DNA from: a virus
Virus record (IMG/VR): IMGVR_UViG_3300043420_001755
Span: 1-25,266 of that record
Reading direction: 5' to 3' (one strand)
DNA length: 25,266 nt
The first letter of the stretch is position 1. Each line of letters begins with the position of its first letter. The notes under the pieces are model-generated. The model ran no database searches and was not told the origin of the DNA. It worked only from the letters and a program-made list of their open reading frames with translations. Shown in pieces: positions 1 through 22,900 of the stretch. The translations under genes were made by a program, and so were the position numbers.

Positions 1-87
1 TTTTACAACTGGAGTGAGGACACCCAAGCGTGGCTTCGGGTAGAATTTGATGAGGCTACACAAACCTGGATAGAGGTCACAGAATGA
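1..87 (+). CDS. C-terminal end of a protein with tandem W-rich repeats (partial)
   Basis: An open frame enters from the left edge and stops with TGA at 85-87, giving 28 visible residues. It contains two copies of a short repeat: EDTQAWLRVE followed by DEATQTWIEVTE. Such acidic, tryptophan-bearing repeats are seen in phage tail or fibre-associated proteins, but the family cannot be fixed from this fragment. The stop overlaps the start of the next gene (ATGA at 84-87), so the two are probably translationally coupled and in the same transcript. Confidence 0.6.
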   Translation, partial: FYNWSEDTQAWLRVEFDEATQTWIEVTE

Positions 88-392
88 AGTTCGTGAAGTA
101 CAAACTGATTCCACGCAAAAATGGTCTTCATATTTCACCAGAGCCACTTTTTGATCGGATGAAATACAGGCTTGAAGTGATCTTCTTTCCTATTGACATG
201 CTTGACTATCACATTGCGAGAGTCAGCGAAAATTGGACCGTAGCACCATACTCGGCATTCCACATGGAAGAAATCACGCAGGAAGAGGCGCTTGAAATCG
301 CCAAAAATGCCGACCCAGACGCCACCATGTCTGACGATGGCGATCTTATTCTTCCAAATATGGTGACATTTATTCCCGACGAAAACACCTGA
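84..392 (+). CDS. hypothetical protein, 102 aa
   Basis: This small soluble-looking protein is not recognised. The start ATG overlaps the upstream stop as ATGA, and GAGGT lies about 7 nt upstream as a ribosome binding site. The N-terminal half is basic (MKFVKYKLIPRKNGL) and the C-terminal half is acidic, with an EEITQEEALEIAKNADPDA helix. There are no transmembrane segments or cysteines. It ends 76 bp before the halogenase gene, and that gap holds no further open frame, so the gene could belong to the upstream (tail-like) operon rather than to the halogenase cassette. Confidence 0.65.
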   Translation: MKFVKYKLIPRKNGLHISPEPLFDRMKYRLEVIFFPIDMLDYHIARVSENWTVAPYSAFHMEEITQEEALEIAKNADPDATMSDDGDLILPNMVTFIPDENT

Positions 393-468
393 CGCTTGCC
401 TTCGCTTTTATGGGCTAGTATTTGCCTCCGATGAACGAAACACTGGTTTCACTAAATACGGAGTCGCC

Positions 469-2019
469 ATGAAAGTCGTAGTAGCAGGTGGGGGGACAGC
501 AGGGTGGTTCACCGCTCTGTTCGCACGTCAATGTTTGCCTGACGCTGAAGTAACTTTGATCGAAAGCGAAGAAGTTGGCATTCTTGGCGCTGGTGAAGGC
601 ACCACGCCCCAAATAATTCAGGCGTTGACGTTTCTCCAAATCCCAATTCGCGACCTGATAATTCAGGCGGAAGCAACAATCAAACATTCCATTCTTTTTT
701 CCAACTGGCAAGGAGATGGACAGTCTTATTCGCATGGCTTCCAGGCTCGCCAGGATCTTTCCTTCTTGCCGCCCGAGGGTTCGCCGATGTCGTTCATTAA
801 TGCGACCACTGACGACTCCTTCATGTATCAAAAACATTTTGATGACCCATATGAGGCCAGTGTCATCACAATGCTTTTGTCAACAATGAAAAAGTCACCG
901 TTTGTCGAACGACCAGTCGATCTTTCCACTATTCAGGATCCTCTGCATATGTTTGACAAGGTATGTAATTTTGCTTTGCATTTCAACGCACGCCAATTAG
1001 CCGAATTTCTAAAACTGGTGGGAACGCATCGCGGTGTAGTGCGAGTAGAAGGCAAAATTAGTCAAATAAACAGCGACGAAACAGGCGACATTACATCTCT
1101 TGTTTTGGAAGATGGCAAAAAAATAGATTGCGATTTTGTTTTTGACTGCTCGGGCTTTCAGCATCTAATTATCGGGAAACACTTCAAATCCGAGTGGCGA
1201 AGTTTCAAAGACTTTCTACCGGCAGATCGCGCGCTTGCATACTTTAAACCGCAACGCAGCAACATTCCCGCTTTTACCGAAGCCGTGGCAATGAAAAATG
1301 GTTGGTCGTGGCAAATCCCCCTTCAAACAAGATTTGGCTCTGGATACGTCTATAGTTCCGCCTATACGGATGAAGACGAAGTTGTCGCCGAGATTGAAGA
1401 ACGTGAAGGCGAAGGGGTGGAGATAACCTGGGGTAAGTCATTTAAATTTGAACCTGGGTACTATAAGGATGTTTGGATTCGGAACTGTGTTGCCGTTGGT
1501 CTTTCGACGGGGTTCCTTGAACCACTAGAAGCAACATCCTTGATGCAGACGTTTGTTCATCTGGAAAACATCTTCAGCCTTCGAATGAATTTACTAGAAG
1601 TTCCGAAACGCGAAAAAGAACTCATAAGCAAAAGATATGCGTCGGCGACAGAAGAAATAGCACAGTTTCTTTATCTTCACTATTTCACTGCTCGCGAAGA
1701 CACGGAGTTTTGGAAGCAATTCAACTACAGCGCGCCAAATATGCCTGAACTGATTAGCGAAATTCTGGGCATATCAAAGTATCGGCAATTGGTTTTTGCC
1801 GATATGCAGCAAATGGCCCTTGCTCAATTTTCTGTTGCCAGTTGGGTGACAATCATCGATGGAAACGGACTAATATCAAAGCAACAGTATGCTGAGATGT
1901 ACGCAAATAGACATTTCGACCGAACGCAAGACTATTTCTCTCTGCGGCGAAACGTTAGTATCGAAGGTCAAAAGTGTCTTAACCATTCAGTATTTCTTTC
2001 AATGATGAGGCGATCATGA
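469..2019 (+). CDS. flavin-dependent halogenase, tryptophan-halogenase family
   Basis: This 516-aa protein has the landmarks of FADH2-dependent halogenases, which turn chloride, bromide or iodide plus O2 into a hypohalous acid and pass it to an active-site lysine that halogenates an electron-rich substrate. Visible are the FAD-binding GGGTAGW motif (residues 7-13), a candidate catalytic lysine at K72 in EATIKHSILFSNW, the family signature WSWQIP at 279-284, and FLEPLEATS at 349-357 with E351 as the usual active-site glutamate. Length matches the family. The start is chosen by GGAG 5 nt upstream of ATG. A free flavin reductase partner is not seen in the window. Related halogenases are known from cyanophages (VirX1, from a Synechococcus phage, prefers iodide), so this could be a viral-type enzyme acting on a small molecule or on a protein; substrate and halide are unknown. 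The stop overlaps the next start (ATGA). Confidence 0.9.
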   Translation: MKVVVAGGGTAGWFTALFARQCLPDAEVTLIESEEVGILGAGEGTTPQIIQALTFLQIPIRDLIIQAEATIKHSILFSNWQGDGQSYSHGFQARQDLSFLPPEGSPMSFINATTDDSFMYQKHFDDPYEASVITMLLSTMKKSPFVERPVDLSTIQDPLHMFDKVCNFALHFNARQLAEFLKLVGTHRGVVRVEGKISQINSDETGDITSLVLEDGKKIDCDFVFDCSGFQHLIIGKHFKSEWRSFKDFLPADRALAYFKPQRSNIPAFTEAVAMKNGWSWQIPLQTRFGSGYVYSSAYTDEDEVVAEIEEREGEGVEITWGKSFKFEPGYYKDVWIRNCVAVGLSTGFLEPLEATSLMQTFVHLENIFSLRMNLLEVPKREKELISKRYASATEEIAQFLYLHYFTAREDTEFWKQFNYSAPNMPELISEILGISKYRQLVFADMQQMALAQFSVASWVTIIDGNGLISKQQYAEMYANRHFDRTQDYFSLRRNVSIEGQKCLNHSVFLSMMRRS

Positions 2020-2723
2020 TACGAATTGGATTCACCGCTGCGGCACACCCTGGACATCCCGGTCGTGTTCTAGAAAGCCACCCCAATTTCTATCCACGCC
2101 GTGAGGACTTTCCTGCCGACGGATCGACTAGAAGGTGTCCAGCATTCCACGACTACACAATGGGTGCGTTTTCGCTTGGCATCGCATACGACATGCGTTT
2201 CTGCGTCAGAAAAACAGCAGACGGAGAGTATTGGGTTGAGTATGACCGATCATTTACCACCCTGCCCGAAGAAGCGTTAGCGCATGCGATTGTCATGCAA
2301 AACATTCAAGAAGGGGTAGCGCAGTTAAACCTGCTGCCGAATTGGATGTTTATTTCTGACACTCCGGATGTCCAGATGATAATCGTGCCCGCCTTGGGAC
2401 AAACGAATCCCGAACCTTTCCGTGGTCAACTCAATATCTACAACTGGTTTCGAAACACTTCATACGCCTTCAAGGTCAAAGTTGATGAGTGGGTGACGAT
2501 TTCCAAAAATTCTCCGATTTTTGCTGTGAAGTTTGTGCATCCCGAAGAGAGCCATTTTGTGTTGGGGGAAATCAAGTTGACCCCAGAAATTGAGCGCCAC
2601 GCACGATACATGGAGGCTCACGGAATTTTGGGAAATCAGACCTTTGCTAAGTGGCGGGAAATTTTCAAGTTCAATGGCAAACGTCGACCTGCGAAGGTTC
2701 TGCAATTCATTGAGGACAAGTGA
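2016..2723 (+). CDS. unknown 235-aa protein coupled to the halogenase (possibly DUF6065-like)
   Basis: The start ATG overlaps the halogenase stop by 4 nt and GAGG lies about 6 nt upstream. The protein is mixed alpha/beta with no membrane segments. Stretches such as RRCPAFHDYTMGAFSLGIAY, then TPDVQMIIVPAL and a strand-rich YAFKVKVDEWVTISKNSPIF, resemble in order the layout I recall for DUF6065 proteins, which have a central beta-rich domain with a CP-x-N/D segment. That assignment is from memory and weak. Tight coupling with the halogenase suggests a linked job, for example presenting or binding the halogenation substrate, but no catalytic residues can be named. Confidence 0.7.
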   Translation: MIRIGFTAAAHPGHPGRVLESHPNFYPRREDFPADGSTRRCPAFHDYTMGAFSLGIAYDMRFCVRKTADGEYWVEYDRSFTTLPEEALAHAIVMQNIQEGVAQLNLLPNWMFISDTPDVQMIIVPALGQTNPEPFRGQLNIYNWFRNTSYAFKVKVDEWVTISKNSPIFAVKFVHPEESHFVLGEIKLTPEIERHARYMEAHGILGNQTFAKWREIFKFNGKRRPAKVLQFIEDK

Positions 2724-2938
2724 TGGAAGAAAACCTGGATATCGACCTCAAGGAAATTATCAACGACATCCTTGAGCAAAACAAAAACTTGACGTTGAAC
2801 AACGCGATGCTTCGCACTGCCGTCAAGCAGTTGCAAGAGCAGAATCGCATTCTGGTTCAGGCAAATAAGCAGATCGAACGGGAAACAGCGGTCCTGCTAG
2901 AGAAAAGCAGGAAAGCAGATGTCGCTGAACCTGAGTGA
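2723..2938 (+). CDS. small coiled-coil protein, 71 aa
   Basis: ATG at 2723 overlaps the upstream TGA by one base. An in-frame GTG three bases earlier is less likely. Residues 5-60 form one long predicted helix rich in Leu, Ile, Asn and Gln with heptad-like spacing (EIINDILEQNKNLTLNNAML and QLQEQNRILVQANKQIERET), so it probably self-associates as a coiled coil. There are no cysteines or catalytic motifs. It overlaps the next gene by 20 bp. It may act as an adaptor or oligomerisation partner for the flanking enzymes. Confidence 0.6.
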   Translation: MEENLDIDLKEIINDILEQNKNLTLNNAMLRTAVKQLQEQNRILVQANKQIERETAVLLEKSRKADVAEPE

Positions 2939-3716
2939 TCTAACGGATCCAGCCCCTGACCCTGGTCCTGCCGACTGGAATGACGAAGGTGTCGTTATAG
3001 TCCAAAACTTCTTCCCAGAAGAACTGTTAGTGCAGTACGAAAAATGCTGGGTCGAATCGAACTCGGACAGGCCAAGGGGATGGCCAGATCCCATCCCATA
3101 CACCCGTCATCCAGAACTTCGTGATCTTTTCTGCTATAAACCCTTGGCTGACCTTCTTGAAACGTTGATTGGCGAACCGGCTGGCCTTCATCTGAATTTG
3201 ACCGGTTGGGTTTCTACGGAACGTGACTGGCATCAGGATTCCTACTTGAATCCACCATGGGTTGGCGACGCATACGCCGCCGTGTGGATTTCTTTTGCTG
3301 ACATCCACCCCGACTCGGGTCCATTCCAATATGTGCCGGGTTCTCACAGATGGCCACAGGTGACACGCCAGAAAATTTTGAATGCTTTGGACCCAGATCA
3401 GCGCGATCATAGATGGCCCAAATTTTCCGAAATCATTCTGTCGCCACTTTTCGAAAACGAAATAAAGGAACGCAACGTCGAAGTAGTCACCCACTTGCCC
3501 AAACGTGGCGATCTTCTTGTGTGGCACGGACGAGTTCTGCATCGTGGATCCAAAGCAAACGTTCCCGGTATGGAACGTCGGTCTGCTATCGCCCACTATT
3601 CCGGTGTTAACCATCGCCACGAAATGCCAGAAGCAGTACAGCACGATGATGGCGGGTTTTATTTTCCTCTGGTGACGGATCTAAACCTTTACTACGAGGA
3701 AGGTTCAGTTACCTGA
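2919..3716 (+). CDS. phytanoyl-CoA dioxygenase (PhyH)-type Fe(II)/2-oxoglutarate oxygenase
   Basis: This 265-aa protein has the double-stranded beta-helix landmarks of PhyH-family oxygenases, which couple 2-oxoglutarate decarboxylation to hydroxylation (or occasionally halogenation) of a substrate. The iron triad is visible: H105-Q-D107 in RDWHQDSYL, and the distal histidine H208 in LLVWHGRVLHRGS, followed by RRSAIAHY, whose arginine would bind 2-oxoglutarate. FQYVPGSHRWPQ is the usual strand between the two halves. Because an acid (D107) is present, it should be a hydroxylase rather than an Fe/2OG halogenase, which would have Ala or Gly there. The start is backed by AGGAAAG just upstream and lies inside the coiled-coil gene. 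Substrate is unknown; it may act on the same target as the halogenase and methyltransferase around it. Confidence 0.88.
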   Translation: MSLNLSDLTDPAPDPGPADWNDEGVVIVQNFFPEELLVQYEKCWVESNSDRPRGWPDPIPYTRHPELRDLFCYKPLADLLETLIGEPAGLHLNLTGWVSTERDWHQDSYLNPPWVGDAYAAVWISFADIHPDSGPFQYVPGSHRWPQVTRQKILNALDPDQRDHRWPKFSEIILSPLFENEIKERNVEVVTHLPKRGDLLVWHGRVLHRGSKANVPGMERRSAIAHYSGVNHRHEMPEAVQHDDGGFYFPLVTDLNLYYEEGSVT

Positions 3717-4291
3717 TGCAACTTTTGAACGCTGGGTGTGGCACGCATTATGCAAAAGGCTGGGTCAACTGTGACGTATGGGAAAGCGATACAACAAAAC
3801 CCGACGTAAAGGTGACGGCAGGTCAGCCATATCCTTTTGAAGACAATTACTTTGATGCGATTTACCTAGGCCACGTGATTGAGCACATTGATTGGGGCCT
3901 TCTTCCAGCATTCCTGGACGACATGCGTCGAATCGCCAAGCCCGGTGCTCCTGTTCTGGTCGTTGGGCCAGACATCGTAAAAACGATTCAACGATGGTCA
4001 GATGGCCGAGAGCCGTGGCACATGGTGATGTCAACCCTGGAACACCAAGACTTCAACTGGCAGCCAGGACGTCAAGCAGAATTCTGGGATGGTGCAACAC
4101 ACCACTGGAACTGCCACCACGAACGGGTATGGAACATCTTGTCTGACATGGGTTTCGAAAACATGGAAGATTATTTCGACATAATCCCCAATTCAACCCA
4201 AATGACCTCATGGCTAGAGGAATCAACTGGTATTGAATGGCCTGTTGTCGCCAAATGGCATTGGCAGTTCGCCATACGTTGTACGGCTTAG
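3716..4291 (+). CDS. class I SAM-dependent methyltransferase
   Basis: This 191-aa protein has motif I LNAGCGT at residues 4-10 (SAM binding), an acidic end of strand 2 (VNCDVWE), and the motif II/post-II stretch FDAIYLGHVIEHI. It belongs to the short group that starts straight at motif I (LNxGCGxxxxxGWxNxD), often found with sugar- or surface-modifying genes. The C-terminal part (WDGATHHWNCHHERVWNILSDM) is His/Trp-rich and probably shapes the acceptor site. ATG overlaps the oxygenase stop by 1 nt, with GAGGAAGG about 14 nt upstream. It is the last gene of the cassette and ends 7 bp before the convergent ribonucleotide reductase stop codon. Methyl acceptor unknown. Confidence 0.85.
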   Translation: MQLLNAGCGTHYAKGWVNCDVWESDTTKPDVKVTAGQPYPFEDNYFDAIYLGHVIEHIDWGLLPAFLDDMRRIAKPGAPVLVVGPDIVKTIQRWSDGREPWHMVMSTLEHQDFNWQPGRQAEFWDGATHHWNCHHERVWNILSDMGFENMEDYFDIIPNSTQMTSWLEESTGIEWPVVAKWHWQFAIRCTA

Positions 4292-4309
4292 CAATCCTTT
4301 ATCGGATTG
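4292..4309. terminator. candidate hairpin between convergent genes
   Basis: CAATCC (4292-4297) and GGATTG (4304-4309) form a 6-bp stem with a 6-nt loop. It spans the gap between the methyltransferase stop and the reductase stop on the other strand. No U-run follows on either side, so it is a weak candidate for a bidirectional or 3'-end-stabilising structure. Confidence 0.3.
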
Positions 4310-6227
4310 GGCAAGCCCCAGTTGCGCATTCGCTGGGATCCAACTCTGTTCCCGAAGCATCCAGAACGAGCGGAACCGAGAAGTCAACCTTCGAAAGCAT
4401 CTTGTTGTACTCGTCTTCGGTGATTTCTTCGTACGGCGGCAACGGGAAGTTGTGGTCAGAGTGAAGAAGGAATGAAACGCTCTTTACCCCGGCAGTGTAA
4501 TTTTCACTCAACCACTGCTTGATGTCGGACAGTTCTTCCTTCCGGTAGTAGACGGTTACCGAGACGGCATTGTCTGCCCAGTCGGTCTGCATTTTCTTGA
4601 CCCACTCCAACTGTTCCACTGCGGTCATGTCTTTCGCCAAGACTGCACCTTCGGGGGATTCAGCGGGGAATTCGACGACATACCGGGTGTGGTCCTCGCG
4701 TCCATCCAAACCGACGTCCCACTTGACCGTGTAGCCGCGTCGACGACAAGCATCTACTAGCGGATCGGCTGCGCCGAAGCGAACACGGCGAATGTAGAAC
4801 CGGGCGTAGGCGGGGTGTACGCCAGGCGTGTTGCCGGGCAGGAGCGACAGTGTTCCGGACGGTTGAACCGTTGTTAGGCGAACGCTAACGGGGAAACCGT
4901 TTGCCGCCGAGTATTCTTCATCGACCTTGCGAAGGTGCTCGTAAACGGGGGACAGCCACGACAACTTCTCTGGGGTGCACTGAAGAACACCGGTAATCGA
5001 CTGGCCAAGACGTGCGTTCTTTTGAACAATCTTGTTTGTCTTGTCGTATGGGTAATTCATCCGTGTGATGTGCTTTTGGGTCATGTACAGCAGTCGGGAG
5101 ATGTCCTTGAACTGCTCCAGGGAGTCAATGTTCGGGAGGAACACGGTCGCCAGGTTGCACGACTCGCCGTCACCCAAAGCAATTTCGGCACATGGGTTGT
5201 ATCCCTCAATAGTGGGATCAGGGCGCTTCTCTCCGAGGCGACCATATTGCCGAGCCAACTTACGATTAACGAGTCCATAGGGTTCTCCTGATCCGTCATA
5301 TCCCTTCCACACCTCGGGAAGGATTTCGTCCCAAGCATCTGCGTAAATGCTGTTGTTGCTGTTTGCGCGCCATGCGGGGACTGATCCTGATGACCAGTTC
5401 TTGGCCCGAAGGAAGAGAACATCGTCCGGGTCGCCGATAGCGATCTGTGCTGAGCGACGTGACGATCCTGAAACCACTATCCGACCGATGATGTTGCAGA
5501 TGTCCAACACATCAATTGATCGCAGTTTCTTGCCAACACGGGCATCCATGACCTTGCAGATGTCGTCGATGCCATCGGTAAGTGCCCCTGGCCCTGATGC
5601 TGTCCCACCAAAACTCTTGAGTGGCGCACCGAATTCACGGATCAGAATTGTGGAGTACGAGAATGATTTTCCGGTGTAGAAGTAGGACTTGAGCACCGAG
5701 TGAAGCAGACGGCTCCATCCCTGACGGGAGTCGGGAACGATCACATCGGCGTCGTTGCTTCGTTCGTGACTGATTTTTACCCCGGCCTTAACCTTGGGCA
5801 GTTCGTGAATCTTGGAGCGCTCTACCGAGAATCCAACTCCACCACCCAGCATCAGGTGGTCGAACAGGAATTCGAAGTCTTCGATTGTTTCGATATTTAC
5901 GAAGTAGCAGTTGTTAAGTGAGGCCGCGTTGAATTTCTTGACGAGGGGTGTTCCCAACTGCCACAGGGCGCGACCAGAGAATGCGCATCGGAGGTTGAAC
6001 ATGTGGTCGAACAAGCGTTCGGCTTCTTCTTGGGTGTAGTCAACGCCGATTTCGATTGCGCCGTTGATGACCCGCTGGATTGTTTCGGGCCACATTTCAT
6101 TGCGCCCCAGTTCTTCAATGTGTCGACTGTATGTGCGCAGATAGACGATTTCGCCTAGTCCACCGAACCCCCATGGTGCCTGCTTCGCAGCGTAGAGAGC
6201 AACAAGGTCATCACTGATGTAAGCCAC
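4299..6227 (-). CDS. nrdJ: adenosylcobalamin-dependent ribonucleoside-triphosphate reductase (class II, monomeric)
   Basis: This 642-aa enzyme reduces ribonucleoside triphosphates to dNTPs using a thiyl radical made from coenzyme B12. The finger loop NPCAEIALGDGESC carries C346 (radical cysteine), E348 and C357; with C107 in LNNCYFV as the redox partner. These match C119, C408, E410 and C419 of the Lactobacillus leichmannii enzyme, including the 11-residue C408-C419 spacing. The C-terminal CATGAC has C634 and C639 spaced like the C731/C736 reductant pair. It is about 100 residues shorter than the 739-aa Lactobacillus enzyme. The start is GTG at 6227-6225, supported by AAGGAA 7 nt upstream. 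The gene provides dNTPs for phage replication and makes the phage depend on host or environmental B12. It lies 25 bp after the small CPxC gene on the same strand. Confidence 0.95.
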   Translation of the reverse strand: MAYISDDLVALYAAKQAPWGFGGLGEIVYLRTYSRHIEELGRNEMWPETIQRVINGAIEIGVDYTQEEAERLFDHMFNLRCAFSGRALWQLGTPLVKKFNAASLNNCYFVNIETIEDFEFLFDHLMLGGGVGFSVERSKIHELPKVKAGVKISHERSNDADVIVPDSRQGWSRLLHSVLKSYFYTGKSFSYSTILIREFGAPLKSFGGTASGPGALTDGIDDICKVMDARVGKKLRSIDVLDICNIIGRIVVSGSSRRSAQIAIGDPDDVLFLRAKNWSSGSVPAWRANSNNSIYADAWDEILPEVWKGYDGSGEPYGLVNRKLARQYGRLGEKRPDPTIEGYNPCAEIALGDGESCNLATVFLPNIDSLEQFKDISRLLYMTQKHITRMNYPYDKTNKIVQKNARLGQSITGVLQCTPEKLSWLSPVYEHLRKVDEEYSAANGFPVSVRLTTVQPSGTLSLLPGNTPGVHPAYARFYIRRVRFGAADPLVDACRRRGYTVKWDVGLDGREDHTRYVVEFPAESPEGAVLAKDMTAVEQLEWVKKMQTDWADNAVSVTVYYRKEELSDIKQWLSENYTAGVKSVSFLLHSDHNFPLPPYEEITEDEYNKMLSKVDFSVPLVLDASGTELDPSECATGACPIR

Positions 6228-6252
6228 TTCGTTTCCTTTTCCCTGAGTTTTT

Positions 6253-6561
6253 TTAGATGATCCCGAGTTCTCTGGCTTGGCTCAGCGGGATGTGTGTTCC
6301 TGCCTTGGCCACTAGAACCGTTGACCGGGTGTAGGGCGTTATTTGCCGTTCTTCCCAAATGTCTTCCCCAACAAGCACGGTTTGCTGGTCTTCGAGAGAA
6401 GGTATGTCCCCCAACCCCCAAATTTTCTTGGGTGGGGACATTGTGCCAGCGCAGTCACCTGTTGGGTGACCACAAACTGGACAAGGACCCCTGTCGGCAT
6501 GCAAAACTCGCGCCCCAGCAACGAAATGGTCTTGGTTGCCGTGGTAGAAGTTTCCGCCCAT
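6253..6561 (-). CDS. small CPxC zinc-knuckle-like protein, 102 aa
   Basis: The protein contains CPVCGHPTGDC (C27, C30, H32 and C37), a likely small metal-binding knuckle, after an N-terminus reading MGGNFYHGNQDHFV. Similar small proteins with YHGNQ and CPxCG segments occur in actinobacteriophages in my recollection, without known function. The frame stays open back to an ATG at 6636, but those extra 25 residues would be encoded by a strong terminator hairpin (6609-6634), so I prefer ATG at 6561. No clear ribosome binding site precedes 6561; GTG at 6579 is another option. The C-terminal half (VLVGEDIWEERQITPYTRST) is likely beta-rich. It lies just upstream of the reductase and is probably co-transcribed with it. 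Confidence 0.7.
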   Translation of the reverse strand: MGGNFYHGNQDHFVAGARVLHADRGPCPVCGHPTGDCAGTMSPPKKIWGLGDIPSLEDQQTVLVGEDIWEERQITPYTRSTVLVAKAGTHIPLSQARELGII

Positions 6562-6608
6562 TAGGAAATCGTACAACACTTTGCGTCGGGCATGGAGCAG
6601 GTAAACGA

Positions 6609-6634
6609 GAAAAGCCGCCCGAAGGCGGCTTTTC
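6609..6634 (-). terminator. strong intrinsic terminator with UUCG tetraloop
   Basis: A perfect 11-bp stem (6609-6619 with 6624-6634) reads, on the minus strand, GAAAAGCCGCC, loop TTCG, GGCGGCTTTTC. The C(UUCG)G closing pair and tetraloop are the classic ultra-stable form, and a UUUU tail follows. It sits 25 bp after the stop codon of the 87-aa minus-strand gene, so it should end that transcript. On the plus strand it could also stop readthrough, but with a CGAA loop. Confidence 0.8.
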
Positions 6635-6659
6635 ATCGACCCTTGTGGGGTGACTTTTG

Positions 6660-6923
6660 TCAGTGGGCGCTGGGGATGCGGTAGCGCTCGTCGTTGTTCG
6701 CCAGGTTGCGGAACTCGGACTCCATCAGGGCGTTGAATTCATCCTCGTAGCGGTACTGGAGAACGATGTGAGCGCGACGACGGGCCTCGTTGCGGAGACG
6801 GTTCTTGATCTTTTGGATCTCCCGTCGCTGCTCCTTCTGCTCGGGGGTCAGGACGCTGGGGCGTCCCCGGCGGATTGCTCCTGCCTTTTCCTTGGTGATA
6901 CGTTCGAACTCGCTAACAGACAT
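6660..6923 (-). CDS. small basic protein with AT-hook-like start, 87 aa
   Basis: The protein begins MSVSEFERITKEKAGAIRRG and continues with RRGRPSVLT, which resembles an AT-hook (RGRP core), then a highly charged helix (EQKEQRREIQKIKNRLRNEA) and a more hydrophobic end. It is rich in Arg and Lys and probably binds nucleic acid; similar small proteins occur in mycobacteriophages in my recollection, with no assigned role. AGAAAGG lies about 8 nt before ATG. It is the first gene of the leftward transcript, reading away from the divergent control region, and is followed by the UUCG terminator. Confidence 0.75.
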   Translation of the reverse strand: MSVSEFERITKEKAGAIRRGRPSVLTPEQKEQRREIQKIKNRLRNEARRRAHIVLQYRYEDEFNALMESEFRNLANNDERYRIPSAH

Positions 6924-7050
6924 GTGATGCCTTTCTGAATAGTTGATTTTTTACTTGTGTGGCTGGGACCTTTTGTTGACAGGTTGTCAACCACGAATAG
7001 GACTTTAGCCCCAGTGTTGACGGAACGCAACTTCTCCCAGGATTTTTTTT
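6924..7050. promoter_or_regulatory. divergent intergenic control region with a 17-bp palindrome
   Basis: This 127-bp gap separates the leftward and rightward gene sets. It holds a perfect inverted repeat at 6975-6991, GTTGACA-GGT-TGTCAAC, that contains the -35 consensus TTGACA on both strands. Matching -10 boxes at 17 bp are poor on both sides (AGGACT at 6999-7004 on plus), so the palindrome could instead be an operator bound by one of the phage HTH proteins. A second TTGACG lies at 7017-7022. A T8 run (7043-7050) directly precedes the GTG start at 7051. Confidence 0.5.
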
Positions 7051-7389
7051 GTGGGACTAGAATCTTATTCGTCCCAGAATCCGACAATCACGAAAGACCT
7101 GGTCACAAGCATGATTTCGCACAAGTTTGCCCTAGAGAAGGCGTCGCAGGCTTCGGTTGATGGGAATTACATGGAAGGAATTTGTTTTTCCCTCTTGGCG
7201 ATTGCCCTAAGCGATGGCATACGAAACAACCCTGATCTTCAGATCGATCATGCTGACCATCATGCCAACCTGGCGGAACTCGAATCAATTGTTCAACTTG
7301 CGTCCAACTTCTTCACCAAGCCAGACGACAGGGCGTTTTCGGAACTGCAGGCCGTGCTTGCGAATTGGGAATATCGCAAAAATCATTGA
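7051..7389 (+). CDS. hypothetical protein, 112 aa
   Basis: This helical protein is not recognised. The GTG start at 7051 has AGGA ending 8 nt upstream, separated by a run of eight T. ATG at 7111 (residue 21) is an alternative with a poorer binding site, and would fit a -10 box TAGAAT at 7058-7063. The body (MEGICFSLLAIALSDGIRNN, then SIVQLASNFFTKPDDRAFSE) is a short all-helical domain. It is the first gene of the rightward small-gene run; 52 bp separate it from the next gene. Confidence 0.6.
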   Translation: MGLESYSSQNPTITKDLVTSMISHKFALEKASQASVDGNYMEGICFSLLAIALSDGIRNNPDLQIDHADHHANLAELESIVQLASNFFTKPDDRAFSELQAVLANWEYRKNH

Positions 7390-7414
7390 CAAGGCCAACT
7401 CGGCCTGATAAACA

Positions 7415-7449
7415 TGCCCCACACTTAACGAAAGGTAAACCGTGGGGCA
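7415..7449 (+). promoter_or_regulatory. inverted repeat enclosing the ribosome binding site and start codon of the 65-aa gene
   Basis: TGCCCCAC (7415-7422) pairs perfectly with GTGGGGCA (7442-7449), leaving a 19-nt loop that contains GAAAGG. The GTG start codon at 7442 lies in the 3' arm. A four-codon open frame (ATG at 7414, TAA at 7426-7428) starts in the 5' arm. This arrangement could make translation of the gene depend on melting the hairpin, for example by ribosomes on the mini-frame. Confidence 0.4.
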
Positions 7450-7639
7450 AGTAATCAAACTTCCAACCGAATACGTCGAAAAACCCAAACAAGACGAGGC
7501 GCTGGCCGAGTACATGACAACAACCATGTGCCGAATCCTGCACCCGTCAGCCGGGAACCTCAGCGATGGGCAACGTAGGCAGATTCTCCAAAAGGCGATT
7601 GACCTTTACGAGCAAGCAAAGTCGCAGAGTCCCAACTGA
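7442..7639 (+). CDS. hypothetical protein, 65 aa
   Basis: The GTG start has GAAAGG about 8 nt upstream, in the loop of a possible hairpin. The protein is unrecognised: a basic/proline N-terminus (MGQVIKLPTEYVEKPKQ) followed by helices (EALAEYMTTTMCRILHPSAG and RRQILQKAIDLYEQAK). Its stop overlaps the next ATG by one base. Confidence 0.6.
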   Translation: MGQVIKLPTEYVEKPKQDEALAEYMTTTMCRILHPSAGNLSDGQRRQILQKAIDLYEQAKSQSPN

Positions 7640-7974
7640 TGGAGATTATTGACCCATCAGAAGAATTCAAACCGATTGACAGTGAACGTTTCACAGTTCT
7701 TATTTCGCTGGTTCAGCGAATGGAAGAACTAGCAACCGACGAAACAATCACCTACGACATCCGACAGGAACTGGGAATTTTTGCTCATCAGTTCGCTGTC
7801 TTGATGTCGCAAGCCATGGCTGGATACGAGTTGTATAAGGCTGTTTACGATCTCGCACTTCGCCTGTACGCAGATCTAGCAACGCAAACATATGAACTTG
7901 GTGTCACCACCCGTCCGGAATCGCTGGCAGATTTCGAGCAACTACTGCTGGCAAGTCACGCAACGGAGGCATAG
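7639..7974 (+). CDS. hypothetical helical protein, 111 aa
   Basis: ATG overlaps the preceding TGA by one base; there is no strong ribosome binding site, so expression probably depends on coupling. The protein is acidic and predicted almost entirely helical (FTVLISLVQRMEELATDE, and a long stretch from residue 45 to 85 rich in Ala, Leu and Tyr). No domain is recognised. The next gene starts 3 bp after its stop. Confidence 0.65.
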   Translation: MEIIDPSEEFKPIDSERFTVLISLVQRMEELATDETITYDIRQELGIFAHQFAVLMSQAMAGYELYKAVYDLALRLYADLATQTYELGVTTRPESLADFEQLLLASHATEA

Positions 7975-7976
7975 CC

Positions 7977-8174
7977 ATGTCGGAACTCGTAAACCGCATG
8001 GAAGTCAACTACGACCTCCAAGAAGAAGACCTTCTCAACGAGGTTGCAAATCGACTGATTGCATTGGAAACCGTAAGCCACGACCTGTACGTTGCGCTTC
8101 GTGAATGCACCGGCAGTGATCGGTCGAAAGCCGCACTAGAGCAATACGAGATAATCAACGAAAGGAAAATGTAG
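7977..8174 (+). CDS. hypothetical protein, 65 aa
   Basis: GGAGG lies 7 nt before ATG, a good ribosome binding site. The protein is small, acidic and helical (EEDLLNEVANRLIALETVSH), with one cysteine. It is not recognised. It ends 2 bp before the next start, as part of the small-gene run. Confidence 0.65.
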   Translation: MSELVNRMEVNYDLQEEDLLNEVANRLIALETVSHDLYVALRECTGSDRSKAALEQYEIINERKM

Positions 8175-9614: not shown

Positions 9615-9947
9615 ATGTCAGACGATATTGACATGTCATGGGCGGCCAAGGGTGCTTGCCGAAACATGAATGTCGAAACTTTCTACCCTGAAAATGGAGC
9701 ACAGTATTCGCGCCGTCACATCAATGACGCCAAGATGGTTTGCGAATCGTGTGAAGTCAGAATCCCCTGTCTCGAATATTCTCTGAAGTATGAAACTTTG
9801 GGGATATGGGGTGGAATGACAGAATCAGAACGTCGTCGTTTTAGGCTCAAAAACAACATAGCCCTCAATCGAAATCGTTTCGCTTTAGCGAACTTCATTC
9901 CCATCTCGTCTCGTCCCAACAAATACAAGGAGGCGAGCAATGAATAA
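9615..9947 (+). CDS. WhiB-family Fe-S transcription regulator
   Basis: This 110-aa protein has the four conserved cysteines of the WhiB family, C15, C43, C46 and C52 (C-x27-C-x2-C-x5-C), which hold a 4Fe-4S cluster, followed by GIWGG at 63-67 and the basic tail ESERRRFRLK that contacts DNA or the sigma factor. WhiB proteins occur only in actinobacteria and their phages, where they bind region 4 of the principal sigma factor and redirect transcription; mycobacteriophage copies can down-regulate host whiB genes. A strong AGGAGGGA precedes ATG. The last 8 bp overlap thyX. The C-terminal 25 residues after the basic region are extra and unrecognised. Confidence 0.93.
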   Translation: MSDDIDMSWAAKGACRNMNVETFYPENGAQYSRRHINDAKMVCESCEVRIPCLEYSLKYETLGIWGGMTESERRRFRLKNNIALNRNRFALANFIPISSRPNKYKEASNE

Positions 9948-13580: not shown

Positions 13581-15272
13581 ATGCGGGCTACCAGCGCTCC
13601 AGAATACGCTACAGAGTTCAAGGCTATTACTGGCCAAATCAACGTCGACGAAGCCCAAGGCATCGTTGAGTGCTTCGTATCTGGCATCGGCAACAAAGAT
13701 TCCGTTGGCGACATAGTCCTCCCCGGCGCTTTTACTGAAAGCCTGAAGCGACGTAAGCCGCGCGTGGTGTGGGGGCACGACTGGAACCACCCAATCGGCA
13801 AGGTATTGGAAATCTACGAGGTTGGAATAAACGACCCTCGCCTGCCAGCAAAAATGCGTGCCGCGCGAATCGGTGGACTTTTCGCCCGTGTTCAATTTAA
13901 CTTGAAGTCCGACAAGGGTCGTGAAGCGTTCACCAACGTGGCGTTTTATGGAGAAGAGCAGGAATGGTCGATTGGGTACAAGACCATCAATGCCATCTAC
14001 GATAACGAGCGTCGGGCAAACCTCCTGCAGGAAGTGGAACTTTATGAAGTTTCACCCGTGCTTCATGGAGCGAACCAACTGACTGGTACCATTTCTATCA
14101 AAGCCGAGGATCAAAGCGGTCAAGTTGATTCCTTTGGTAAAAGCAAGTGGAAAATGTTTGACCGTGAATTCGCAGCCAGAATCAAAGAGGATTATCCAGA
14201 GATTTGGGCAAAAGGTGGCAACATCAAGGGCAACGCCCAGTACGCGATTTTGACAAAGATCGCGGAGCGGGGGGGATCAGCCGACACTCCCGACCAGATC
14301 AACGCCCTCGAATTGCGCGAAGCATGGGTGGCAAGGCACGCGGGCGACTTCCGACTCCCCGGCGTCATCGCTCAGATCAAGTGGCTGGCGATTGGGAGCA
14401 GGGGCGAGGACTATATGAAGAATGTGGTCCGGGAAGCCATGAAGAAGTCGGATATGAAGAAATCCAGCCAGAAAACAGCGCCCGCCGACGGCGACGAAAT
14501 GGCTCAAGAAAAAGGCCACTGGATGCAGGTTCCCAGCGAAAGCAGGAGCATGATGCGTTCACTAGCCGCCGAGATTGGGAAACGATTCGGCGGTCCGGTA
14601 CGTATGCGCCAAGTGTCGAAAAATCAAGTCATCTTCGATCATCTGCACGATGGAAAGCCGATGACGATGAGGGTGGGCTACCACTATGAGGATGGCCAGT
14701 TCATGTTTGGCGATCCGGTCCAGGTTATGGCCAGAACCGTCTACATGGAGATGGAAGACGGCGACGAAGAGGCTGGTTACGGGAACGAATATCAGGGTGA
14801 TGATGAAGGTGAAGAACGGGAGTACCCGACGCCTTCGGACTACGAAAACGAAGACGAGGACTACGAAAAGGTTCTTTGCACTTGTGGCAAAAAGTCCTAC
14901 TTCTCCAACGTAGACGATTTCCTTGACAGCCTTGACACAATTGACATGGACAGCAAGGCTGGCCGTGTTATCAGTCGCAACAATCTTCAGCGACTTCAGC
15001 AGGCAATTGACATTCTTCAGGAAATTGTTGCTGCTGGCGGGCGTGCGGAAATCGAAATGAAGGACGGCAACTTTATTTCTGCCCCAACGGATCGACTGTT
15101 CATCCTCAAAAACTTCATTGACCCCGTACTTGAATTCCATGGGGCCGAAGTTGACATTACTGAAGATGGCATTTCAGTAAAGTCGGTTTCCGGAGATGAG
15201 GAGGCATTTACAGAAGCGCTCCTTAACGCAGTCGCCTCATTCACTACCCTTGAATCCAAGGGACTAATGTGA
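13581..15272 (+). CDS. HK97-family prohead protease with long multidomain C-terminus, 563 aa
   Basis: Residues 15-175 are an HK97-type prohead protease (peptidase U35), which cleaves scaffold and capsid during head maturation. Visible are SVGDIVLPGAFTESL, the catalytic histidine H66 in VVWGHDWNHPIGKV, catalytic S130 in EWSIGYKT, and the ELYEVSPVLHGAN strand (E156). The rest is unusual: a helical domain with EDYPEIWAKGGNIKGNAQYA and LREAWVARHAGDFR (about 190-290), a linker rich in Lys and Ser, an alpha/beta domain (about 310-390), an acidic stretch, a CTCGKK pair (near 433-435), and a C-terminal alpha/beta domain. HK97 gp4 itself is only about 225 aa. The extra domains may act as a built-in scaffold. 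AGAGGTG supports the start. Confidence 0.88.
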   Translation: MRATSAPEYATEFKAITGQINVDEAQGIVECFVSGIGNKDSVGDIVLPGAFTESLKRRKPRVVWGHDWNHPIGKVLEIYEVGINDPRLPAKMRAARIGGLFARVQFNLKSDKGREAFTNVAFYGEEQEWSIGYKTINAIYDNERRANLLQEVELYEVSPVLHGANQLTGTISIKAEDQSGQVDSFGKSKWKMFDREFAARIKEDYPEIWAKGGNIKGNAQYAILTKIAERGGSADTPDQINALELREAWVARHAGDFRLPGVIAQIKWLAIGSRGEDYMKNVVREAMKKSDMKKSSQKTAPADGDEMAQEKGHWMQVPSESRSMMRSLAAEIGKRFGGPVRMRQVSKNQVIFDHLHDGKPMTMRVGYHYEDGQFMFGDPVQVMARTVYMEMEDGDEEAGYGNEYQGDDEGEEREYPTPSDYENEDEDYEKVLCTCGKKSYFSNVDDFLDSLDTIDMDSKAGRVISRNNLQRLQQAIDILQEIVAAGGRAEIEMKDGNFISAPTDRLFILKNFIDPVLEFHGAEVDITEDGISVKSVSGDEEAFTEALLNAVASFTTLESKGLM

Positions 15273-17844: not shown

Positions 17845-19912
17845 ACGGATTCCCCGGTCGGCGTCTTTTTCGCGTCACCTTTCTCCCGAGTTGAAGGGTT
17901 TGACCGGTCTCTACTTCGAACCCATCAATGACAACCAGATTCTGGCAGATCACAAGGCTCGTCTTTATCTGAATCGTTCCTTGCGTCGTGGCGAATTCAA
18001 GGTTGGTGCTGTTGGTTCCCGCAATCCTGTAGGGCAGGCTGCTCAGGCTGTTGGAACAATCATTACGCCAGGCAACATCAGTCCTGCCCGTAGTCCGATC
18101 CGTTCGGGAATCGCCCGTGCCCTGACGCCGGGTGGTGGCCGTAACCGTGGTGGTCTTCCTGGTAAACCAGAACGTGGTTATAGGTGTCCTGAAGGCTTTC
18201 AGTTTGGTGGGCGTTTCACTGACGAGGATTTTACGACGTGTGGGAAGCAACTTTTTGACATTCCGTCTTTGAAGGAGTCTGTCGCGCAGGCTGTTTTCCG
18301 TACGCGGTCACGTCGTTCTGCTGGATCTGATGGTGGCCCCCGTGCCGAGGCTGATGTTGAAGTTGTTGCCCCTGGTGAAACTGATCGTGATAACGAACTG
18401 ATGGTTCGTCGGGCGGCGCGTGTTCCGGAAGTTGGTTCGGCGTCGAATAGCAAGAAAACTGCTGCAGAAAAAGATTCAATTGTCAACATTGTGAATCAAC
18501 CTGAAAATTCGAGTGTTCTTGTTCGCCGTGATGGCTTCATCATGGTTCCGGTGGTTTCTACTGCGGAACTTCGCAAAGTTCCTGACAACAGAAACATGGA
18601 AGAAGCGACTTGGATTCAATCCGTTCGTTCCCCCGAAGAAATGGGCAAGGACGAACTTGGCCTTTTGTCAAATACAGGTGTCACAAAACTTGTTTATGTC
18701 ACCCCAAATGGCGTGACCGTAACGCTCGAACGAACCCGTGACCTGGATACTGGGGAACGTCGTCAGTTGGGCAAAGATGCGAACACTGCCGCAGACATGG
18801 ACGTAAACAAAGATCCTTTGGCGCGACTGAACTTTATTGTTGAAAATTCTGAAGGTGCGTTCAAACTTTCGACAGACTTCGGTGACGTAAAAAATCCCGA
18901 GCAGATTCAGGCTGGTGGCAAAAACAAAGGAATGCCCAAGTGGGCTGTTGAGGCTTTTGTTGATGCACCTGAACCCCGAACCGAAGATGCTGCCGACCTT
19001 GACGAACCTGCTGGGGATGCGGACGCACCAGAAGCGCCAGATGCGCCCGAAACCCCAGCATCGGTAGCACCAGCCCCCTTGGAGGAGCGAATCGATTCGG
19101 TCAAGGAGGCTGTCGAGCACCTGAATAAGGGTGGCCTTCTTGCCGACATTGATCCTTCAGTGCTGTACGAAGCACTTCAACGGGCCGAAGAGTACAAGAA
19201 GCGCAAGATCCGAGATGACATCACTGTTTTGGAAGGGCCTAACGGCCTGAAGTTGCTGTTGAAAGAAAATAACGAGGACTTCGAACACATCAGTGCCCAC
19301 TATTCGTCTGAACTTTTGCGTGAACTTGGCGTTCAGGCACCTGCTGTTAGATTTGCTGGAAGCGAGACGAATAGGCCGTTCGTCTACCGATCCCCCGATG
19401 ATGTGATCGAAAACGCAGAGTTGGACAGGGATATTCGTACGGAAGATTTTCCGCCCGAACGGATTTTGGGGATTCAGATTTCGGACTGGCTGGCGGACAC
19501 CCGAGGGCGCACCGCAGCGTCAGTTGTTGGGGTTCGTGTTGGTGACGAAACTGAGCCGGTTGCCAATATCGGTCCACGGTCGGCCCTGATTGGTTTGGAC
19601 GCAGATGAACTTGCTGCCCGACGGGATGTCGGTTTGGAGCAGTTTTTTGACGACACCACTGCCGCTTATGGGCGAACCTTTGGGGAAGCGGAGCAGCAGG
19701 AAAAGGATTTGATGCTTCAAATTCTTGAATCGTTGATCGAAAGGGCTAACGAATTTTCTTGGGAGGATTACCGGGCCAAACTTGCTGCTGACGGTATTAT
19801 TTCAGAGGCAGAAGAAAGACACCTAAGTATTGTTCAGGAACTTTTTAACCGCCGCCTAGAAGCGTTGAACAGTTCCAAAGAAACCATTCAAACGATTTTG
19901 GGACTTGTATGA
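17837..19912 (+). CDS. 691-aa virion-region protein with a degenerate kinase-like domain
   Basis: ATG at 17837 overlaps the upstream gene by 8 bp and has a G-rich stretch before it; the in-frame ATG at 17735 is buried in that gene and is rejected. Residues 1-115 are basic and Gly/Pro-rich. Residues 116-136 carry RCPEGFQFGGRFTD and a second cysteine (C117-x17-C135). A beta-rich middle domain follows, then an Ala/Pro/Asp linker (about 375-415). Residues 460-585 align with the kinase-like domain of the next protein: K476 in KLLLKENNEDF, then HISAHYSSELLRELG and AVRF. At the catalytic sites it has GRTAAS (557-562) and GPR (579-581), so the catalytic Asp, Asn and metal-binding Asp are lost. I read it as a pseudokinase. 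The stop overlaps the next start (ATGA). Confidence 0.75.
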   Translation: MPERIPRSASFSRHLSPELKGLTGLYFEPINDNQILADHKARLYLNRSLRRGEFKVGAVGSRNPVGQAAQAVGTIITPGNISPARSPIRSGIARALTPGGGRNRGGLPGKPERGYRCPEGFQFGGRFTDEDFTTCGKQLFDIPSLKESVAQAVFRTRSRRSAGSDGGPRAEADVEVVAPGETDRDNELMVRRAARVPEVGSASNSKKTAAEKDSIVNIVNQPENSSVLVRRDGFIMVPVVSTAELRKVPDNRNMEEATWIQSVRSPEEMGKDELGLLSNTGVTKLVYVTPNGVTVTLERTRDLDTGERRQLGKDANTAADMDVNKDPLARLNFIVENSEGAFKLSTDFGDVKNPEQIQAGGKNKGMPKWAVEAFVDAPEPRTEDAADLDEPAGDADAPEAPDAPETPASVAPAPLEERIDSVKEAVEHLNKGGLLADIDPSVLYEALQRAEEYKKRKIRDDITVLEGPNGLKLLLKENNEDFEHISAHYSSELLRELGVQAPAVRFAGSETNRPFVYRSPDDVIENAELDRDIRTEDFPPERILGIQISDWLADTRGRTAASVVGVRVGDETEPVANIGPRSALIGLDADELAARRDVGLEQFFDDTTAAYGRTFGEAEQQEKDLMLQILESLIERANEFSWEDYRAKLAADGIISEAEERHLSIVQELFNRRLEALNSSKETIQTILGLV

Positions 19913-22900
19913 CGCACAATCTGACCCTTATCAAGGACGCAATGAGTGGCGAACTGTATGGTGCCGTCGTTCATTCTGACGTTGAAACCAAGACTGTCGG
20001 CTTCTGCTCAAACGCCAAAGAATGGGCTGGCTGGGCAAACGATTCAAACGCCACATTCTCCGAGATCAAGGACTCGTTGGATTTCACGCTTCAACAAGAG
20101 CAGCCAGTAAAACTGTCCGCAAAAAACCTTGCTGAACTTCGTACAAAACTTTCTGATGTTGACTATTTCAAAGTTAAGCGACTAGCCCCTGATACCGCCG
20201 TGGTTCAGTACGGACCAAAGCACAAAACCATGGGGACGCGTTACGTGTCGAAACGGGTTTTGGAGCACAAGTCTCCCGTTTCTGGAACCATGTCGCGACC
20301 ACTTGCGTCCTTTGGAAAAGACCAGCAGGCCGCAGTTCTTTCGTACAAAGCGCAGTTCCTCGTAACCCAGGAACGCTACGCGAGCCTGAACCTTCAGGTA
20401 AAGCGAAACCGAGCACTTTTCGATCCCAACATTGGTCCTGGCGGTGGATGGCGCTGTCCTGATGGAACGCTTTACGGTGGTCAGATCACTGACCGGTTTG
20501 GTCGCGGGTGTGGCGGTGGACTTACCCGTCGTATCGGGCGCGCATTGCTGCAAGCAGGACAACGACTTGATGACATGGGTGTGGCCCGTGATCAGCGTCG
20601 TTTGGCACGCAGAGCGCAGGCATCCGAACGGCGCGCACAACGGCGCGAAGCGCTGGGCAATTTCTTTGATGCGACTGGTGACAAACTTGAGGCTTGGGCG
20701 CAAGCACTTGTAGGTGACTACGTTCCGTCCAAGGGTGGTCGTCGTCGCCGAAGGGGCCTGGAGGCTGGCAAAGTAACACGTCAAGCCAAGGGAAAGAAGA
20801 AGCGTGTAATTCCTGACAAGAGTCCTGCTGCAAAAAAGAAGGGCCAAAGAAAGAAGAAAGGAACACGGGCACGTCTCGCCGATTTTTCTGATCGTGTTTC
20901 TGCTGCCGCCGAGCGAATGGCGCAACGTCTTGTTGGTGATTACAAGCCACCGAAGAAAGAACGCAAAAAGAAGGGTTCGAAGAAAGAGGGTGCAGCGTCG
21001 AAACTTGATTCGTTGGCGGCGAAGTTGGAACGCGCCGCACAGCGCATTCTTGGTGGTGGACGGCGCGAGCGTCGCAAGAAGAATCAGAAGCCCGTTGATC
21101 GTAAGCCTTCAAAAAAGGTTCCTACCGGCAAGAAGCCTTCCCCTAAGCCGAAACCAGAAAAGAAGCCTGCCCCAAAGAAGCCTCGCAAGGTTGATGCCAA
21201 GAAGGAACGCATCAAGGAAATTGATGCTGAACTTTCTAAGATTGACCAAGAGATTGCAAAAACTGAGTTTGCGATCATGCAGAACGAAGAATATGGGGTT
21301 TCTTCCGAAAAACTAATTCAGGAAGTAAAAGACCTAGAAAAGAAGCGGGCAGAACTTATTGCCGAGCGTGTTGCGCTCAACTCTACCGATCCTGTAACAC
21401 CAGCAAAGTTGCCGCAAAAGAAGCCGTCAGGGAAGCCTTCTGGCGCTAAGAAAAACCTTCCTGGCAAACAACATGGCGGCGTTTTCACAAAACCCGAGAA
21501 CGCAAAGAAAAAGGCTAACGAAGCATCGGTACAGGAAGGAAAGCCCCTTTTCGTTGTTCAGGATGCTAACGGCAAGTACCGGGTTGTTGACGAAGAACGA
21601 CTCAAGGCTGATGATTCGCTACAAGTCGTTTTTGCAACAGACCAAGAAGGTGGAATCATTGAATTCACCGACACGGACTCGCCTGTCGATGAAATCATTG
21701 AAGAAGCAAACAAGGCTGCCGAAAATGTTGAGAAAGCGGCCAATGAACACCTTAAAGACCTTGATGTTGATGCGCTTGACCTTGAACTGAAGCGATCCAA
21801 GACTGGTGCTTTCCTTCCAGAGAACTTCGACAAGCAGGTTCTTGACAACTATTCATCGCTTGCCGACAAGCGTTTTCGTGAAACGTTCCACAAGGAGCGG
21901 ATGACGAACTGGCGGTTCTGGCAGAAAACTCTTGGTGACGACAAGATTGAGGGCGTTGAAGATTCCAAGACGATGCTTGCCTTGATCGATAAAATGATCC
22001 AAGAAGAATCCGAGAAGCCTGACGCTAACCAGTCTGTCCTTGGCGTTATGCGGGCAGAGCGCGCGAACTTCCTGGCGATGTGGGTTCCCGACGAGGGTCA
22101 GGACGAAGTTAACTTCTATGAACGGATCAACTTTGTTCAACCAAAAAGGCGTCAAAACATAATCACAAACGCCGACCTCGGTGACTTGATTGTTGGAAAT
22201 AAGAAGTCGAAAAAGAAGACTAAGCCAAAGAAGGTCTCCCCCGAGGCTTCAATTAAACCAGATGACAAGAACGTTCCTGAAGCGTCAGATATGGGTAAGC
22301 CGACTCCGGAGCCTGACGCTGATGAACCACAGATTTCTACATTAGATCAACTTGTCAGCAAGTTCTTTGGAGAAGAAATCGACAACGTAACGGCAGCGAT
22401 GAACAAGGCTGTCAAAGACGTGCAGGACAGCAACTTTGCCGAGTTCCGCGACAAAGACGGCAAGATTGATATCGATAAAGCGAAAGCCGATCTTGACAAA
22501 GAATCGGACGAACTTAGCGACGAATACCACGGAATCTACAATCGGATTCTTGCTGGTGAAAGTGTTCCCGAAAGTGAAGTTATTGCTTCAGCACAGCGAA
22601 ACATTAATTTCAAGGCTCGGCGGGCCGCTTTCGACGAAGCGAAAAAGCAGCATGCCAACGAAATAGAGATGGCCGACAAGGCCAACGACAACACCGTAGA
22701 TACCGAAGCAGTCACCCCAGATAACGTCCCCACAGGACCATCACAGGCTGACCTTGTCAAAGCATACACCGACACGTGGAATACAGACGAGGACTTCGAG
22801 AAAATTCATGCCAATGATTTGGCTGATGACATCCTTCAGCAATCGGGTCTTCAATCGAAAATCGACGCCAATGATTTCGATAATGAGAATTCGGTTGACG

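Follow-up and report, generated by a model that had tools for sequence, protein, structure and literature searches.

We know of no native role for the halogenases that bacteriophages carry, including VirX1, which is used in biotechnology. A gene for a flavin-dependent halogenase (FDH) in a 25,266-nucleotide stretch of viral DNA (IMG/VR record IMGVR_UViG_3300043420_001755; hereafter the window) raises the question of what such an enzyme does for a phage, and with which partners. One more phage FDH would by itself be ordinary. The part worth testing is its possible partnership with the product of the overlapping downstream gene, ORF2: a recurrent overlapping partner with a recognisable fold is a concrete handle on the role of phage halogenases.

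Results

An intact halogenase gene

We analysed the integrity of the halogenase gene (HAL; positions 469..2019, plus strand) and the conservation of its motifs. The reading frame starts with ATG, encodes 516 amino acids and is uninterrupted, without frame defects. The Pfam profile PF04820 (Trp_halogenase) matched HAL with 356.7 bits (E 2.6e-106; cut-off 21) over profile positions 1-449 of 458, and the phage family phrog_2928 ('tryptophan halogenase') matched at 2e-101, which bears out the identity proposed in an earlier note on this DNA. The flavin motif GxGxxG is present as GGGTAG at residues 7-12 (GGGTAGW starts at residue 7), the WxWxIP motif as WSWQIP at residues 279-284, and alignment to RebH K79 places the catalytic lysine at K72, all as the note had it. 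Its catalytic glutamate, E351, has to be corrected: of the two Glu residues in EPLEAT(S), E351 comes first, whereas the catalytic one is the second, E354, which aligns with RebH E357 (PDB 7ju0, EPLESTG); the corresponding catalytic Glu of BrvH is E349 (PMC5945002). K72, E351 and E354 are invariant across 14 aligned viral sequences. We thus confirm that HAL is an intact FDH with all catalytic residues present, and these residues suggest that it would halogenate.

The halogenase lies upstream of a resident gene block

The window is a 25-kb fragment of an IMG/VR viral contig that encodes, besides HAL, an HK97-type prohead protease (13581..15272, plus strand), which marks the contig as caudoviral, a primase/helicase, a class II ribonucleotide reductase, ThyX and a WhiB-family transcription factor (9615..9947, plus strand). 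The phage origin is therefore secure. WhiB was also matched in sibling phages, and because it is found in both, an actinobacterial host is likely; 'actinobacteriophage', the term of the earlier note, is accordingly a likely description rather than a proven one.

HAL heads a row of plus-strand genes arranged head to tail. Its stop codon overlaps the start of ORF2 (2016..2723, plus strand, 235 amino acids) in the sequence ATGA at 2016-2019. ORF2 abuts a small coiled-coil-like ORF of about 72 amino acids (2723..2938, plus strand), which overlaps the gene for a PhyH-type 2OG-Fe(II) oxygenase (2919..3716, plus strand), which in turn overlaps that for a SAM-dependent methyltransferase (3716..4291, plus strand). 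The adenosylcobalamin-dependent (class II) ribonucleotide reductase gene on the opposite strand (4299..6227, minus strand), 75-92% identical to its sibling copies, forms the right border of the cassette. The operon with an oxygenase and a methyltransferase that had been proposed is thus real, and larger than was stated.

PhyH served to find sibling phages (24 loci in 21 records). PhyH and the methyltransferase occur together at 17 of the 24 loci, while just 1 of the 21 records has a halogenase, which is a different FDH elsewhere in the genome. The coiled-coil-like ORF is 90% identical to the ORF just upstream of PhyH in the sibling G001. Since siblings keep PhyH and the methyltransferase without a halogenase, HAL and ORF2 are the variable part, upstream of a block that is resident in the phage group. 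For the same reason the oxygenase and the methyltransferase were rejected as specific pathway partners of HAL, and their presence is weak evidence for a shared pathway. No flavin reductase gene was seen in the window, and a promoter and terminator scan of positions 1-4400 gave matches no more than chance. The G+C content of the halogenase region is 44-46%, against mostly 48-54% elsewhere in the window, at most a weak hint of a separate origin.

HAL belongs to an all-viral clade

Viral halogenases had been described in the earlier note as rare, with VirX1 as the best-known example, and one in an actinobacteriophage as a broadening of the known range. Relatives of HAL are present in 78 of 50,697 GenBank phage records, mostly of cyanophages, and at 32 IMG/VR loci. 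FDH genes have been reported in 20 of 153 cyanophage genomes (PMC10452541), and a 2010 paper already named prnA among the genes that occur sporadically in cyanophages (PMC3037559). Nor is the host range new, since an annotated tryptophan halogenase of the Actinomycetia phage DSL-LC01 has already been published (PMC10611076). Neither the rarity nor the broadening can be maintained.

We compared HAL with VirX1, RebH and bacterial FDHs in a tree of 71 rows, including 40 bacterial proteins (thinned from the best 80 of >593 matches to the viral alignment), RebH and 6NSD. In this quick tree, supported by SH-aLRT only, HAL falls in a 19-row all-viral clade (SH-aLRT 95) with the phage family phrog_2928, which comprises HTVC008M, IMG/VR relatives and DSL-LC01, whereas VirX1 of cyanophage Syn10 falls on the bacterial/RebH side. 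Descent of HAL from a VirX1-like enzyme is therefore not supported, and VirX1 is not its nearest relative. A nearer bacterial or actinobacterial relative of HAL may lie beyond the best-80 bacterial set. An all-viral FDH clade would be a source of new biocatalysts.

Within the clade, the HTVC008M enzyme, from a Pelagibacter phage, is 34.5% identical to HAL and keeps the aligned motifs, as HAL does. That of DSL-LC01, a phage recorded with an actinobacterial host, like the probable one here, is 26% identical. Neither has a dUTPase-fold neighbour. VirX1, 27.6% identical to HAL and outside its clade, shares with it the WxWxIP and EPLE motifs and a position directly before an overlapping gene of the ORF2-like or DUF6065-like kind. 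DSL-LC01 and the first halogenase of Syn10 form long branches in the tree. The regular patterns WxWxIP and EPxExT, both kept in HAL, were not found in either of these two (L034:8980-10551 and L036:2473-3996, respectively), whose active sites are possibly altered, judging from the sequences.

ORF2 and its sister family

ORF2 had no match in Pfam, and a single-sequence search found no relatives of it in phages or in the first viral scan; its family was reached only through the neighbours of other phage halogenases. These neighbours form two related families, one DUF6065-like (phrog_7084) and one ORF2-like (phrog_17480). The sole PHROG matched by ORF2 is phrog_17480 (E 0.0012; 8e-11 for its 49% identical ortholog in G001); ORF2 itself did not match the phrog_7084/DUF6065 profile, and hhalign linked the ORF2 family to the DUF6065 alignment weakly (prob 58).

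For a model of the DUF6065-like protein, the top PDB entries listed by Foldseek were dUTPases and dCTP deaminases (probability about 1.00, best E 6.9e-5). The sequence profile of this family also raised dUTPases, without significance, and the record of cyanophage S-CREM1 labels its own copy 'triphosphate nucleotidohydrolase'. As modelled, the sister family DUF6065/phrog_7084 thus shows a dUTPase fold. The match is weaker for ORF2 (model pLDDT 82), for which dCTP deaminases led the PDB matches (best E 0.02, prob 0.66-0.89), and strong matches were to uncharacterised phage proteins. The model points, less firmly than for DUF6065, to a divergent protein of the dUTPase/dCTP-deaminase fold, distantly related to phrog_7084/DUF6065. 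ORF2 has little sequence identity to the dUTPase/dCTP deaminase superfamily, and the catalytic Asp of dUTPase motif 3, kept in the DUF6065 branch (G-I-V-D-T-D), is Asn in ORF2 (GQLNIYNW). Because of this replacement, ORF2 is probably not an active dUTPase.

A gene of probable dUTPase fold recurs beside phage halogenases

As seen from the fetched loci, an ORF2-like or DUF6065-like gene adjoins or lies near an FDH gene in the window, in the L002-L006/L026 lineage, in L009, L030, L076 and L081/L082 (three halogenases and three dUTPase-fold genes), in the phages G007 and G056, and in Syn10, where the phrog_7084 gene, CPUG_00130, overlaps and directly follows VirX1. Read from coordinates and annotations, a gene of the Syn10 type (>34% identity) stands beside a halogenase in 8 distinct cyanophages, one of which is P-TIM40, where it lies within 2 kb. 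The pairing thus recurs in many unrelated phages.

Within the phage group of the window (the window and 34 sibling records retrieved through the prohead protease), a dUTPase-fold gene is adjacent in 3 of 3 halogenase-bearing members and present in 1 of 32 halogenase-free ones (Fisher p = 0.0006, a value that ignores relatedness and fragmentation and belongs to a comparison chosen after the pattern was seen). The FDH of the sibling G007 is 30% identical to HAL and adjoins the capsid gene; in this syntenic genome it stands a long way from PhyH. Given this low identity and the separate sites, the window and G007 hold different FDHs at different loci, each beside a dUTPase-fold gene.

The link is not obligate. 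No dUTPase-fold gene is present in the fetched stretches of L007, L011, L013, L015, L017, L018, L021, L023, L025, HTVC008M and DSL-LC01. Conversely, G001 keeps an ortholog of ORF2, and its capsid gene is immediately followed by a DUF6065-like gene, but its 105 kb contain no halogenase; and tailed viruses of haloarchaea (HF1, HF2 and others; matches H93-H142) carry DUF6065-like genes, annotated as hypothetical, and none of these viruses is among the halogenase matches listed. No DUF6065-like or ORF2-like neighbour was found at the 80 bacterial halogenase loci fetched (the best 80 of >593). Among open-licence PMC papers we found none on DUF6065, or on tryptophan halogenase, dUTPase and phage together. 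As far as could be checked, the pairing has not previously been noted; what is new here is the gene of probable dUTPase fold recurrently beside phage FDHs, the FDHs themselves being already known.

Other neighbours were surveyed as well. Among 44 genes near halogenases, from about 20 loci, the most frequent Pfam families were 2OG-FeII_Oxy_3 (8/44), 2OG-FeII_Oxy_5 (7/44; the two may overlap) and carbamoyltransferase (4/44), counts made with no background set and hence carrying no claim of enrichment. The carbamoyltransferase-like genes stand beside halogenases at L015, L017, L021 and L023, a locus assignment made partly by eye.

Discussion

We give about an even chance to the reading that HAL is an active FDH of a phage-specific clade, held in a cassette with ORF2, that acts on an aromatic compound, though not on free tryptophan, with ORF2 as its co-worker. 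FADH2 would be supplied by a flavin reductase of the host. FADH2, O2 and halide would yield hypohalous acid at the flavin, and K72 would hand the halogen on to the substrate, an electron-rich aromatic compound that E354 polarises. Translation of HAL and ORF2 is probably coupled, since the start of ORF2 overlaps the stop of HAL. ORF2 most likely works with HAL: it may bind or present the substrate, perhaps a nucleotide-like compound or a macromolecule, or both proteins may act on one target. We infer this joint action from the recurrent adjacency of the two genes.

It is improbable that HAL is decayed, or a flavin monooxygenase that does not halogenate. The catalytic Glu is followed by A-T-S in HAL where PrnA has S347-T348-G349, and this Ser-to-Ala and Gly-to-Ser change would fit decay; however, 21 of the 26 viral members that carry an EPxE motif likewise have ATS after the Glu, and BrvH, like HAL, has Ser at the last position. 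All catalytic motifs are kept in HAL, and pairs of related viral FDHs (HAL itself has no relative near enough) give dN/dS values of 0.08-0.16, which indicate purifying selection on the related phage enzymes. That HAL halogenates free tryptophan like PrnA, as phage genes of this kind are often annotated, is very improbable. The names of the Pfam and PHROGs families say so, and a PrnA annotation with a role in making an antibiotic precursor has been proposed for a cyanophage (PMC9964418). The Trp4 motif, which holds tryptophan by its amino and carboxyl groups (PMC8269204), was nevertheless matched neither in HAL nor among the 46 viral ORFs scanned (duplicates included), in a scan set that lacked a positive control, as the pattern was also unmatched in 138 bacterial ORFs. 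In addition, the best PDB matches of HAL include the Xanthomonas halogenase 6y1w and BrvH (6frl). These two are bacterial, not phage-borne (PMC5945002, PMC7336383), and have EPxEST for the EPLEAT of HAL; BrvH has an open pocket and halogenates indole, and not tryptophan (PMC5945002). Without the Trp4 loop, as in BrvH and 6y1w, the pocket of HAL is probably open too. Because of the missing motif and the BrvH-like matches, we rejected free tryptophan as the substrate; HAL is probably BrvH/Xcc4156-like, with another aromatic compound as its substrate.

Which compound that would be, and whether ORF2 shares in the reaction, divides the remaining readings. HAL could act alone on a small host metabolite such as an indole or phenol, the relatives of ORF2 being independent nucleotide-pool or accessory proteins that share hypervariable cargo sites. 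We regard this as possible, if tentatively: many viral FDHs lack a dUTPase-fold neighbour, haloviruses and G001 have dUTPase-fold genes without an FDH, and 2OG oxygenases, glycosyltransferases and a P450 are also exchanged at the cargo sites of the group. However, the adjacency is immediate, often with overlap, across unrelated phages, and syntenic siblings show the pairing at two separate loci, which is more than shared cargo sites would easily give. Rather unlikely is the reading that HAL modifies the side chains of Trp or Tyr in a protein of the virion or the host, as part of a decorating set with 2OG oxygenases. These oxygenases are the commonest FDH neighbours, BrvH-type pockets are open (PMC5945002), and phage FDHs do stand among tail or capsid genes (beside the capsid gene in G007, among tail genes in G056) or, in DSL-LC01, after collagen-like genes. 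Such places near late genes may, however, only reflect cargo sites; no specific target gene recurs beside FDHs and no modified protein is known. A long shot, finally, is a more specific form of the partnership between HAL and ORF2: a two-component system in which the dUTPase-fold protein would bind a pyrimidine nucleotide or a nucleic-acid base and the FDH would halogenate it. If this were true, halogenated nucleotides would be toxic to the host or serve as marks on the phage DNA, and the natural role of VirX1 would be the same.

Some further features of these loci were observed. In L081 and L082, 2OG-oxygenase-like genes are interspersed among the three FDH and three dUTPase-fold genes, all within positions 920-8015 (about 8 kb). 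The window contains a very long K-rich ORF (19909-25266) that runs off the window end; approximately at residues 1509-1557 it weakly matches PI3/PI4-kinases, with an E of 0.0005 that does not reach the cut-off of Pfam. A sibling phage encodes a cytochrome P450 (PF00067, E 4.4e-9) at L042:2-1007 on the minus strand, truncated at the border of the locus as fetched.
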